Of a stretch of 64,000 nucleotides of DNA, positions 32,243-62,850 are shown piece after piece. The stretch is from Atopobium sp. oral taxon 416. GTDB taxonomy: Bacteria > Actinomycetota > Coriobacteriia > Coriobacteriales > Atopobiaceae. The DNA is taken from the NCBI RefSeq assembly GCF_018128285.1, contig NZ_CP072380.1, positions 2,914,001 to 2,978,000 on the forward strand, written 5' to 3'. The stretch's first letter is position 1, and each line of letters opens with the position of its first letter. A model generated the notes under the pieces. The model did not search any database and was not told the origin of the DNA. It saw only the letters and a program-made list of their open reading frames with translations. The position numbers and the translations under genes were made by a program.

Positions 32243-33377
32243 ATGAATAGAGTACTCAAAATCGCAATGGATGTCCATAGTTCGAATTACACTTTGTGTG
32301 CAATGGAGCCTGTGGTTGGGGCAAAGGACAGGGTCTTCGCCAACATCCAGGTACCCCCTGATTATAAAAACGTTCTCCAATTTATTGAGAACCTTAAAAA
32401 GAAACTTGGCCTTACCGATACTTATTCTGTTGAATGCGGCTACGAAGCCGGATGTCTTGGATACTCCTTATACCATCAGCTAACGAACGCCGGTGTAAAA
32501 TGCGTCATTCTTGCGCCGAGCACAATGCTAGCCCCTCAGGGCAAGCGGGTGAAGACGGATGCACGTGATGCCAACATGATCGCTCAGTGTCTTTGCTATG
32601 GCGGATATCTTGCGGTTCATGTTCCCACCGATAAGGATGACTCTGTAAAAGAATATCTTCGTATGAGGGATGACCACAAACTGGCACTCAAGAAGATCAA
32701 ACAGCAGATCAATGCTTTCTGCCTGCGTCATGGCTTTTTCTATGATGGCAACAAATGGACAATCAAGCACTGGAACTGGCTGAAGACACTTGGAGCTGGA
32801 TGATCTGCTGCGCGAGACCCTCGACGAGTATCTGGCATCCTATAAGGAACACTCATCAAAGATCGAACGCTTCGACAAACGGATCGAGGAACTTGCTGGC
32901 GATGATGATTACAAGGAAAGTGTCAAAAAGCTTGGCTGTCTTCTCGGTATAAAGACTCATACGGCACCTTCACTGATTGTAGAAACCGGCGATTTCAGTC
33001 GTTTTGCCAAAGGCAATACCTATGCTGCATTCCTCGAGCTTGCGCCGGGAGAATCTTCCAGTGGAACAAAGATCCAACGTAGCGGAATTTCAAAAGCTGG
33101 CAACAGTCATCTTCGTACGCTTCTCATTGAAGGGGCAAAAGGAATCTGCAAGGGACAGATCAGACATAAATCCAAGGAACTGCGCTGCAGGCAGGACGGA
33201 AATACAGCTGATGTCATTGCATATGCTGACAGAGCAAACACAAGACTTCGAAGCAAGTATTACCGGATGATCCGCCATGGGAAAAAAAGAAATGTAGCGG
33301 TTGCTGCAGTTGCCAGGGAACTTGCCTGCTTTATATGGGCAATGATGACAGGCACTATCGCTTTCAGAGAAGCCTAA
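32243..33377 (+). pseudogene. IS1111-type transposase with one frameshift
   Basis: The DEDD domain starts KIAMDVHSSNYTLCAMEP (Asp10), continues with VECGYEAGCLGYSLYHQL and KTDARDANMIAQCLCYGG. The C-terminal domain has LGCLLGIKTHTAPSLIVETG and GESSSGTKIQRSGISKAGNS, where a serine is proposed as nucleophile in this family. The first frame ends at 32803 and the second opens at 32790; one base indel near 32790 would restore a ~378-residue protein. AAAGGAG precedes the ATG. A programmed frameshift is possible but no slippery heptamer is seen. Confidence 0.88.
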
Positions 33378-39223: not shown

Positions 39224-40425
39224 ATGGAAGGCACGTCTGTCGTTTACGCCGGCATCGACACGCACAAGGAGGCGTACGTGCTGTGTGTGCTGGGCGCGCT
39301 TGGCAGGATCGTCTACGAGGGCGGGTTCGCCGCCGACGGCGCCGGCTACCGATCGCTCGCCCACACCATCAGCGACGCCGGCCGCTGCGCGCTCGTCGGT
39401 ATCGAGGGTACAGCCTTATACGGCGCTGGGATCTGCTCTTACCTGCGTGAGCGCGGCTACACTGTCATGGAGATCCTGCGGCCCAAGTGCGACAAGAGGC
39501 GCAGGGGCTCCAGCAAAAACGACGCCATAGACGCGGAACACGGCAGCGGGGCACGGCACCTGTATCCTAAAGTCGAAGGACGGGTGGTCCGAAGCCGTCA
39601 GGGCACTGCTGGACTTAAAAGAGCTATGCGTGAGGACCTCGACGGCGGCATCCAGCGCTGCGAAGTCCCTGGACAACATCGCGCCGGAGCCCATAAGGTC
39701 GAAGTACGAAAAGATGAGCGTTTTAGCGATGATGAAGTCGCTCGCCAGGAAAAGGTCCGCAACCGGCAGTGCCGTCACGGATGCGCTGCACACTTCGCTC
39801 CATGTTCTCGCGAAGACGTGGATCGACGCCAAGCAACGGGCCGACGAGCTCGAGGCGCTCATATCCGACCTGGTGCGCGACAACGCGCCGGCCCTGCTGG
39901 AGATCGACGGCTGCGGCGCTCGACAACGCCGCGGGCGACAACCCCGAAAGGCTCCGCTCAAAAGCAGTACTCGCCTCGCTTTGCGGCGCCTTGCCGATAG
40001 AGGCGTCGAGCGACAAGATCGTCAGGCGCAGGCTCAACCGGGGAGGTAACAGGCAGGCCAACAGGGCCTTGCACACCATTGCCCTCAACCGGATGAAGTA
40101 CGATGGGCGCACGCAGGAGTATGTCGCGAAGCGGATGGCCGAGGGCACATCGAAGCGCGAGGCAATCAGATGCCTCAAGAGATACATCGCCCGGGAAGTC
40201 TGCTGCGCGCTGATGAACCCGACAGCTAAAACCCACGAGGACGAAAGGTCGCTCAGGGCGAAAAGGGCCGAAGCCGCGATGACGCAGGAAGAGGTCGCCG
40301 CCGCACTCGTCACCGACCACATCCGCATAAGTAAGATCGAGCGCGAGGCCAGCAAGCATTACGAGATTCGCGATAGGTACTCCGCATTCATGAAGAGCAA
40401 GTTAGCGAACCTGAAAATGGCTTGA
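39224..40425 (+). pseudogene. IS110 transposase with XRE-like C-terminal tail, frameshifted
   Basis: The DEDD domain reads VVYAGIDTHKEAYVLCVLGA (Asp11), GIEGTALYGAGICSYLRERG and SSKNDAIDAE. Frame changes occur near 39535 and 39915. The C-terminal domain has LASLCGALPIEASSDKIVRR and REAIRCLKRYIAREVCCALM. A further ~50 residues follow that ordinary IS110 proteins lack: RAEAAMTQEEVAAALVTDHI, RISKIEREASKHYEIRDRYS, which look like a Cro/XRE helix-turn-helix. Two indels keep it from being a single protein. Confidence 0.82.
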
Positions 40426-42720: not shown

Positions 42721-43120
42721 CCTAAAACCTACAGGAGAACGTGCCGTGCCACCTGCGCATTCGCATATTCTTCATTCACACATCGTGTCGAAGAGCCGCA
42801 TTATATTGCCGCTTGCCCCATAAAGCCAACCGATTGCCGATGTCGTCTGGGTTGCCGCCCTTGCCTCCCCATCAAGGACTATCAGAAGAATAGTTTGGAA
42901 TATCACCAGGTAGATTAGCTAATTTTCGCAACAATATCGAGTTTAGATCGGCAGTAGACTACGATATACTTTGAAAAACCAAATAAATCTCTAAAAATAC
43001 CAATAAAAACAAAGTTTATAATTCTGTTCAGTTGGTAAAGCATCAGGAGAAAGGAGACCAGCTATATGAAGTTAAGACCCAAAAGATAGATTCCCAGCAC
43101 AAAAGTTTTTGCAAGTAAGA
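42721..43120 (+). other. AT-rich leader with a stranded ribosome site
   Basis: This 400-bp gap has an AT-rich part (42890-43030) and then AGGAGAAAGGAG seven bases before ATG at 43066, which opens a frame of only seven codons (MKLRPKR) before a stop. It looks like the promoter and start of the first gene of the PTS operon, cut off by the IS110-type relic that follows. No other gene was recognised. Confidence 0.35.
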
Positions 43121-43535
43121 GTTGCACTTTGAGAGCTGAATATCGAATGCTTCCAAAGGCCGGTCCTAGCGATCGGGGTCGTAGGGAGCCTGTCTGCGCA
43201 TGACGGCGAAGATGATATGGCAGAGCTTCCTCGCCACGGCCGTCACGGCCACTCTATGGGGGCTTCCCCTCGCGGCGCTTCTTGTCGTAGAAGGCTTTCC
43301 TTCGTCGACTTCGGCGGGGCCTACCCGGCACCTAGAACCGCAACCTCCTAAAAGAGATCCGAGGTAACGAGATGTGAAGTTCCTCATCCAGCTAATTCGC
43401 AGCCTGCTCTAGATGGGGCAGGATGCCACTTCCCCTTTGCGAGGTCTTGTAGCCTCAGTTTCCATGTCGGCAATACTGCCCGCCAGATGCTGCATTGCAT
43501 TTGAAAGCATTCGATACTCAGCTCTCAAATGCAAC
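43121..43535. repeat. IS110 remnant flanked by ~36-bp inverted repeats
   Basis: The left repeat (43121-43156) and the right one (43497-43535) are near-perfect inverted copies; the right copy is itself an imperfect palindrome with GCATTTGA/TCAAATGC ends. A third copy sits alone at 62775-62820. Between them the minus strand encodes the last residues of an IS110 transposase (KAFYDKKRREGKP, frame change, VAVTAVARKLCHIIFAVM, stop at 43166). It may be a deletion derivative mobilised through its ends. Confidence 0.55.
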
Positions 43536-43556
43536 AACTAAAAGATAGGAGCCTTC
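43455..43556 (+). promoter_or_regulatory. Leader segment shared with the ABC operon at 62.8 kb
   Basis: From about CATGTCGGCA to the ribosome site AAAGATAGGAG the sequence matches the reverse complement of 62757-62850 with few changes. The match ends at the start codons of two unrelated genes. It includes the palindrome described above. It could carry a promoter, an operator or an IS end; which is not known. Confidence 0.5.
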
Positions 43557-44081
43557 GTGACAACCAAGATCGCACTTGCCTGCGATGACGTCGGTTTTGA
43601 GAGAAAGGAAGAAATCCAGCAGTATCTGATCTCTCGGAAGGATGCGGAGATTGTCTACGACCCGGTCAAGACGCCAGAGGACGGTAAGAACACTTTCGCT
43701 CGTCTGGCTGACGAGATGTGCGAGCTGATCCAGAGGGACGTATGCCGCCTGGGCGTCTATATCTGCGGCACGGGAATCGGGTTTACCTGCCAAGCCAACA
43801 AGCATTGGGGCATCCGCGCCGTCATGGTGTCCAATCCTTACACAGCACAGCGTGCTCGCCTCTCCAACAACGCCCAGATAATAGGGATGGGCGCTCGCGT
43901 GCTTGGCTTGCCATACATGGAGCAGGTGCTCGACGCTTGGTACGACGAACCCTTCGACTTTGCTACGGCGCGGGAGGACTCCAAGTTCAACCTGCTGGAG
44001 GCGAAAGCAAGTGACTACCGCAACCTGGCAAAGCCTGACTACGTGGCATGGAACATGGGCTTTGAGCCCGACGAAGCATAG
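43557..44081 (+). CDS. RpiB/LacA-LacB-type sugar-phosphate isomerase
   Basis: A 174-residue aldose-ketose isomerase of the RpiB/LacAB family, which isomerises ribose-5-phosphate, galactose-6-phosphate or similar aldose phosphates. The key motif is GVYICGTGIGFTCQANK with the Cys/Thr active loop, followed by GIRAVMVSNPYTAQRARLSN and AQIIGMGARVLG. The N-terminal DDVGFERKEEIQQYL replaces the usual D(H/N)xxxxLK. The start codon is GTG with TAGGAG five bases upstream. The stop is 12 bases before the PTS IIC gene. The C-terminal 20 residues extend beyond the minimal family. Substrate is not resolved. Confidence 0.85.
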   Translation: MTTKIALACDDVGFERKEEIQQYLISRKDAEIVYDPVKTPEDGKNTFARLADEMCELIQRDVCRLGVYICGTGIGFTCQANKHWGIRAVMVSNPYTAQRARLSNNAQIIGMGARVLGLPYMEQVLDAWYDEPFDFATAREDSKFNLLEAKASDYRNLAKPDYVAWNMGFEPDEA

Positions 44082-62049: not shown

Positions 62050-62754
62050 CTACCATTCGAGCTGGGCGGCGGGAACGGGATCGGCATTGATCTCGTTCCC
62101 GACAAGCACCCCTTCGCGCAACTTAAGCCGTCGCGTCGCCATCTGGCCGATAGCGTTGTTATGGGTGACGATGATGGTCGTGCACCCATGGTCATGACAG
62201 ACCTGCTCAATGAAGGCGAGTATTTCCTTCGAGGTTTCGTAGTCCAAAGCGCCCGTCGGCTCGTCGCAGAGCAGCAGACGGGGCTTCTTCACCAGTGCAC
62301 GCCCGATGGAACAGCGTTGCTGTTGACCACCGGAGACCTGTGTGGGGAACTTGTCGCGATGACCCCACAGGCCCAGCGAATGAAGCAGCTCGTCAACATC
62401 GAGTGGGTCACGAGACAGATAAGCGCACACCTCGATGTTCTCGCGGATGGTGAGGTCTTCGACAAGGTTGTAGAATTGGAAGACGAAGCCGAGCGATTCG
62501 CGCCGGTAATCGTCAAGCCCTCGACCTGAAAGCTCAGTAAGGTTGACGCCGCCAACTTCGATCGTGCCGCCGTCGGGCTGCTCAAGCCCGCCTACCAGGT
62601 TGAGAAATGTTGACTTGCCCGAGCCGGAGGGCCCCAACAGAGCGCACAGCTCGCCGGTACCAACATCGACGTCGATCCCCTCAAGAACCTCGACGCGCGA
62701 TCCGCTTTCCCCATAGCCTTTTCGGAGATCCCGCACCCTCAGAAAGTCGTCCAT
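62050..62754 (-). CDS. MacB/LolD-type ABC transporter ATP-binding protein
   Basis: A 234-residue ATPase that powers the neighbouring permease. It has Walker A GPSGSGKST (about residues 42-50), the Q-loop GFVFQFYNLVEDLT, the signature VSGGQQQRCSIGRAL, Walker B LLLCDEPTGALD and the H-loop IIVTHNNAIGQM. The LTELSGRGLDDYRRESLGFV segment is typical of the MacB/LolD group. The ATG has AAAGATAGGA upstream, which belongs to the leader segment shared with the PTS operon at 43.5 kb. No two-component system lies beside it. Confidence 0.95.
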   Translation of the reverse strand: MDDFLRVRDLRKGYGESGSRVEVLEGIDVDVGTGELCALLGPSGSGKSTFLNLVGGLEQPDGGTIEVGGVNLTELSGRGLDDYRRESLGFVFQFYNLVEDLTIRENIEVCAYLSRDPLDVDELLHSLGLWGHRDKFPTQVSGGQQQRCSIGRALVKKPRLLLCDEPTGALDYETSKEILAFIEQVCHDHGCTTIIVTHNNAIGQMATRRLKLREGVLVGNEINADPVPAAQLEW

Positions 62755-62756
62755 GA

Positions 62757-62850
62757 TAGTTCCTATCTTTTAGCTATTGCATTTGAGAGCTGAGTATCGA
62801 ATGCTTTCAGATACAATGCAGAATCTGGCGGGTAGGGATGCCAACATGTC
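62757..62850 (-). promoter_or_regulatory. Leader segment shared with the PTS operon at 43.5 kb
   Basis: On the minus strand this matches 43455-43556, including the 36-base imperfect palindrome (copy at 62775-62820) and the ribosome-site stretch CTAAAAGATAGGA. The similarity stops at the start codons. It may be a transplanted promoter or an IS110-related end. Confidence 0.5.

Follow-up and report, generated by a model that had tools for sequence, protein, structure and literature searches.

An IS110-family lineage of Coriobacteriia with a predicted guide RNA that appears programmed for translation starts

Introduction

IS110-family elements with a bridge RNA are already known (PMC11208160). 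The lineage described here resembles the IS621/IS110 group of that paper in (i) its DEDD recombinase, left-end guide RNA and CT core, (ii) the layout of the predicted RNA, with a 5′ stem-loop, target and donor loops and two guides for opposite strands, and (iii) a sigma-70 promoter at the right-left junction, which in our case is predicted from the ends. It differs in that IS621 targets REP elements, whereas the programme of the present lineage is a Shine-Dalgarno sequence together with a start codon, and in that its ends share an inverted repeat of about 30–47 bp, compared with the 2–3 bp described for the IS110 group (PMC11208160). The seekRNA elements of the IS1111/IS110 type, for instance ISEc11 and ISEc21, share RNA-guided targeting, natural reprogramming, the lack of a target duplication and a circular intermediate that forms a promoter (PMC11187229), the last of these being presumed for our elements; the RNA of IS1111 usually lies downstream of the transposase, whereas here it lies upstream. 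Junction promoters have been described for IS110 elements in both sources (PMC11208160, PMC11187229).

In the parts of this literature considered here, each bridge-RNA target named is a specific sequence, for example a REP element or a segment of another mobile element. Neither 'ribosome' nor 'Shine' appears in the main text of PMC11208160; the portion of PMC11187229 considered uses 'ribosome' once, concerning a cargo gene, and gives no Shine-Dalgarno or start-codon target for seekRNA elements. Alike in aim are the TnGBS/p-MULT transposons, which insert in one orientation at a general gene-expression signal; they use a DDE transposase, insert upstream of sigma-A promoters and are not relatives, and the portion of PMC3942029 considered mentions no guide RNA. 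We found no IS110 element programmed for gene starts in the open-access literature, a search that does not prove absence from print.

Here we analyse a leader shared by two operons of Atopobium sp. oral taxon 416 and conclude that it very probably represents the left end of an IS110-family element whose bridge RNA, in this Coriobacteriia lineage, has a target loop naturally programmed for translation starts.

Results

The shared leader and its copies

We analysed a stretch of 64,000 nucleotides (the window) from a host genome of 3.0 Mb in one contig. The preliminary description had reported a unit of about 95 bp common to the leaders of two unrelated operons, and this is borne out: in a search of the 3.0-Mb genome, window segments 43455–43556 and 62757–62850 are 89% identical over 88 bp (E 1.8e-26). 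The similarity was said to reach the ribosome site, as it does, and to stop exactly at the start codons; in both leaders it ends at the Shine-Dalgarno sequence, 5 bases earlier. Copy A has the Shine-Dalgarno sequence GATAGGAG at 43544–43551, and in copy C the ATG at 62754 (minus strand) is preceded by GATAGGA(A), with GATAGGAA where copy A has GATAGGAG.

The leader unit gives 16 matches in its own genome, comprising eight gene-proximal copies (A–H), six inverted palindrome copies, which sit at the opposite end of elements, and two 14-base matches; a ninth host left-end fragment (L057) is not at a start codon. The genes downstream of the copies are unrelated among themselves: an rpiB-family gene and PTS EIIC (A), a CAAX-protease family gene (B), an ABC ATPase and FtsX permease (C), a TacA1-like antitoxin gene (D), a DeoC family gene (E), a type III pantothenate kinase gene (F) and a PTS IIB gene (H).

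Judged from its sequence, the leader common to the two operons belongs to an IS110-family insertion sequence, of which it forms the left end. Behind the unit, longer copies carry an IS110-family transposase, or what is left of one, on the opposite strand. The transposase of two intact relatives carries PF01548 and PF02371 (DEDD_Tnp_IS110 and Transposase_20), the domains that mark the family, and host copy D matches both Pfam families in separate pieces. The left end starts 235–281 nt ahead of the transposase match and its RNA region has a conserved fold, which fits the IS110 group, recognised by a noncoding left-end RNA region that precedes the transposase. The IS1111 group is recognised by a right-end guide RNA and subterminal inverted repeats of 7–17 bp; we do not assign the lineage to it, because the RNA region lies in the left end and the inverted repeat is longer.

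Copy D measures 1552 bp and its transposase is frameshifted; longer relatives are mostly 1552–1610 bp in length. Copy A (497 bp) is internally deleted and retains the RNA region and the right end, copy C retains about 89 bp of the left end, and short left-end remnants with matches of 54 bp (copy E), 36 bp (G) and 30 bp (H) adjoin genes. No intact transposase was found among the host copies of this lineage that were read. Copies A and C comprise the following features:

43055..43551, minus strand: copy A, MITE-like IS110-family element, 497 bp core to core; its left end adjoins the rpiB/PTS operon
43492..43535, minus strand: 5′ stem-loop of the predicted bridge RNA, identical with the palindrome; conserved fold
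43457..43468, minus strand: predicted left target guide GACATGGAAACT (start codon, N5, core)
43430..43439, minus strand: predicted right target guide CAAAGGGGAA (Shine-Dalgarno); AAGGAG in most relatives
43385..43395, minus strand: predicted left donor guide TTAGCTGGATG, like the right end ATAGCTGGTCT (by-eye comparison)
43344..43354, minus strand: predicted right donor guide CTTTTAGGAGG; its TAGGAG is complementary to CTCCTA of the left end (by-eye comparison)
43166..43300, minus strand: transposase C-terminus remnant (VAVTAVARKLCHIIFAVMRRQAPYDPDR, then stop); upper limit approximate
43121..43154, minus strand: right-end stem-loop motif, inverted relative to the left end
43070..43075, minus strand: right-end −35-like hexamer TTAACT; TTGACT in most relatives
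43542..43547, minus strand: left-end −10-like hexamer TATCTT, which would lie 17 bp from the right-end −35 in a circle (by eye)
43544..43559, plus strand: hybrid ribosome-binding site GATAGGAG, 5 bases and GTG (43557) of the rpiB-family gene 43557–44081
62760..62848, plus strand: copy C, truncated left end, about 89 bp, before the ABC-exporter ATPase gene 62050–62754 (minus strand)

The inverted palindrome copy that had been noted near 43121 is present, at 43121–43154. A test of protein binding to the palindrome had been suggested; it corresponds to the stem-loop with which the predicted guide RNA begins at its 5′ side. Further IS110-family transposase matches lie in the window at about 2554–2805, 32264–33140 and 39248–40125.

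A scan of named genomes gave 78 related loci, in Collinsella, Enteroscipio, Thermophilibacter, Gordonibacter, Kribbibacterium and other Coriobacteriia and, at roughly 29–44% identity, mostly in Clostridia. The left end occurs in at least 35 of 395 genomes of the order, a lower bound because two candidates were scored per genome, and in 9 of 60 genomes of a nearer set (own genome included in both counts). The host also harbours a second IS110 lineage (L028–L031), which has another target, since four of the five copies read have identical flanking sequence.

Ends, target and an empty site

The left end starts CT-CCTATCTT and the right end terminates TTGACTTCATATAGCTGGT-CT, and joining the flanks of 22 elements shows the target: on the gene strand, 19 read AAGGAG, GAGGAG or GGGGAG with ATG or GTG 3–7 bases on, the exceptions being L096 and L097 (altered sites) and L218 (changed target). 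One orthologous empty site agrees with this. The element lies between rsmD and coaD in Collinsella sp. An2, and one of two congeners has an uninterrupted AAGGAGGCACATCATG before coaD; the second has a different start region without the target signal. No empty site was found for the window copies: the rpiB gene of copy A was unmatched in 10 genomes, and the ABC gene of copy C was matched in five of 10, of which the three read had no AAGGAG-ATG near the estimated start.

Joined in a circle, the ends would give TTGACT-17-TATCTT, and those of Clostridia TTGACT-17-TATAAT (counted by eye). An inverted repeat of about 30–47 bp is common to the left and right ends and was compared in 16 elements of the related loci. 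The repeat score is 49.3 between an element's own ends, 33.8 with ends of other elements and 16.9 with shuffled sequence (0/5000 permutations); the two repeats evolve in concert. Transcription across the right end would yield RNA antisense to the predicted RNA's 5′ stem-loop.

Two side observations concern right ends. Read in the gene direction, some carry ATGAAG shortly after the original Shine-Dalgarno sequence (window 43050–43080 and related loci); it is present in 27 of the 84 right ends found in both lineages (chance expectation not computed) and opens a mini-ORF of 6–7 codons in 25 of these 27. At L138 / L222 two right ends stand in tandem, which suggests repeated insertion or excision at one site.

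Left-end sites at gene starts

We compiled left-end sites of Coriobacteriia from 120 raw matches to a loose pattern, of which 59 were kept. Sites qualified with at most 4 mismatches or as divergent copies (L242, L245–L248), identical 20-base flanks were merged, at least 25 bases of flank were required, and L166, L033, L027 and L232 were excluded by name; copy D, merged away with identical flanks, was added by eye, giving 60 distinct sites. ATG or GTG follows GGAG (GGAA in three) by 3–8 nt at 57 of them, so that the preliminary question whether the unit always abuts start codons is answered by 'nearly always', and at 54 an ORF of 30 codons or more begins. The six others are the L057 fragment, the reprogrammed L218 and L221, and L108, L220 and L240, with short ORFs of 4, 22 and 17 codons, respectively.

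In comparison, AAGGAG in a 400-kb sample of the host genome passes the start test in 53/351 cases, and random positions in 1875/20000 (Fisher p 1.5e-30 overall; host copies alone 7/9, p 7e-5). The spacing between Shine-Dalgarno sequence and start is 5 or 6 nt at 44 of 53 left-end sites versus 17 of 72 native ATG sites, under slightly different rules, the native set being ATG starts of ORFs with 100 codons or more. Of 39 clostridial sites, 24 qualify as starts, with a wider range of spacing, against 1423/12400 random positions in the same loci.

The predicted guide RNA and its fit to the target

From its sequence pattern, the left end appears to hold a bridge RNA with a 5′ stem-loop, a target loop and a donor loop. 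This architecture is visible in the fold of 20 aligned left-end RNA regions (of 21 candidates; L222 left out), in which 25 of 58 pairs have at least one compensatory change. A search of Rfam with L112 and L018 gave no match up to E 1. In the donor loop, TAGCTGG and TAGGAG fit the ends by eye, the ends hardly varying.

The Coriobacteriia target guides read CAT-N5-NT on one side of the loop and AAGGAG or a variant on the other, which together are the reverse complement of a translation start, AAGGAG-N5-ATG. Among 29 unique left guides, one of them spurious, CAT stands in exact register in 24 and within one base in 26. We compared the N5 of left guides, extracted from 46 of the 60 copies with the spurious L108 left in, with their own and with permuted targets (n = 46 pairs). 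At register 0 only 1/5000 permutations (5/5000 with wobble) and at register −1 0/5000 were as good, whereas none of the remaining five registers gave fewer than 274/5000 (shift −3). Two left-guide registers seem to be in use. A stricter earlier extraction of 17 left guides gave 10/5000, and 3/5000 with wobble. These are tests of ensembles: single left guides fit CAT-N5-CT at 1 to 10 of 10 positions with wobble, and copy A fits at 8/10, its right guide having GGGG versus GGAG in its target.

Right guides, taken from 19 of 22 elements (none was readable in L096 and L222, and L233, which lies at a contig end, was omitted), agree with their targets at 6.79 of 8 bases compared with 5.47 when permuted (0/5000); GGGGAG guides occur at GGGGAG sites, and one GAGGAG guide at a GAGGAG site. 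The clostridial left guide reads Shine-Dalgarno sequence plus spacer (6.44/10 vs 5.08; 0/5000, with three probably misread guides, L158, L199 and L201, retained), while five control positions outside the guide gave 1927/5000. All permutations ignore kinship, in that guides recur among related elements; the targets are separate insertions. The permutation tests bring out the hallmark of a bridge RNA, a two-part guide that matches opposite target strands and varies with the target.

Individual copies follow the same rule. L161 and L162 have similar RNA regions and different guides, each fitting its own site. In L218 (1501–1750) and L221 (1501–1733) both target guides are changed and lack CAT and AAGGAG, and both elements are inserted at GGGAAACGTCCC, where a start codon is lacking; guides and target have changed together, a case of natural reprogramming.

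Discussion

The adjacency of left ends to genes might arise if only the Shine-Dalgarno hexamer were recognised, by RNA or by protein, and start codons came along as a by-product combined with selection against intragenic copies. Insertions within genes are often harmful, such selection could add to the start bias, and clostridial guides read just CTCC plus spacer, with 24/39 sites still at starts. We nevertheless regard this explanation as unlikely. AAGGAG by itself yields 15% at starts and not 90%, the spacing is tighter than at native sites, and CAT keeps its exact register in 24/29 unique Coriobacteriia left guides while the adjoining five bases vary; common descent could explain some of the CAT conservation, and selection against insertions within genes does not account for the guide sequence.

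The preliminary description put forward a mobile promoter or regulon element. The unit is mobile and nearly always abuts gene starts, but that it is retained for transcribing or regulating the downstream gene is in our view highly improbable. In favour of this reading, remnants of 30, 36 and 54 bp do persist beside genes that are unrelated, but the ribosome-binding site alone can explain their retention, since all remnants include GATAGGAG. A simple promoter scan detected nothing promoter-like within the unit that reads towards the gene; copy A has two weak sites upstream of the whole element (42942–42998), about what chance gives (0.6 expected). A shared regulon likewise gained no support, and we rejected the palindrome as an operator, as it is the stem-loop of a conserved RNA fold. 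Copies at IS ends had been named as the observation that would speak against this reading, and the unit is an IS110-family left end, with the right end and transposase remains opposite it in longer copies.

We consider it likely, on comparative grounds, that the copies belong to a natural lineage of RNA-guided elements whose guide spells Shine-Dalgarno sequence plus start codon, and which can insert before very many genes in one orientation, keeps the coding sequence unbroken and leaves ready-made ribosome-binding sites, with reprogramming visible copy by copy. By analogy with IS621, the bridge RNA would be produced, pair with DNA and hold target and donor while the recombinase, if active, exchanges strands at the CT core. 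Copies would land just ahead of genes because the predicted guide spells the ribosome-binding site and the start codon. With the CT/AG core inside the Shine-Dalgarno sequence and the start codon read by the left guide, the left end would always face the gene and rebuild the hybrid site GATAGGAG, the original leader remaining at the right end; insertion inside AG would leave GATAGGAG in place and so explain why the similarity stops beside the start codon. If a circular intermediate forms, it would bring the right-end −35 and the left-end −10 together as a promoter from which the RNA is transcribed. With age, copies would decay yet retain the bases that now serve as ribosome-binding site, and they may affect expression; a remnant kept as the gene's ribosome-binding site would explain the survival of pieces down to 30 bp (copy H).

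These elements supply a natural set of guide-target pairs and a possible tool for placing DNA directly before genes. Guides directed at a general gene signal would give RNA-guided mobile DNA a new natural strategy, one that, if true, offers many sites per genome, spares coding sequence and rebuilds the gene's ribosome-binding site from the end of the element.
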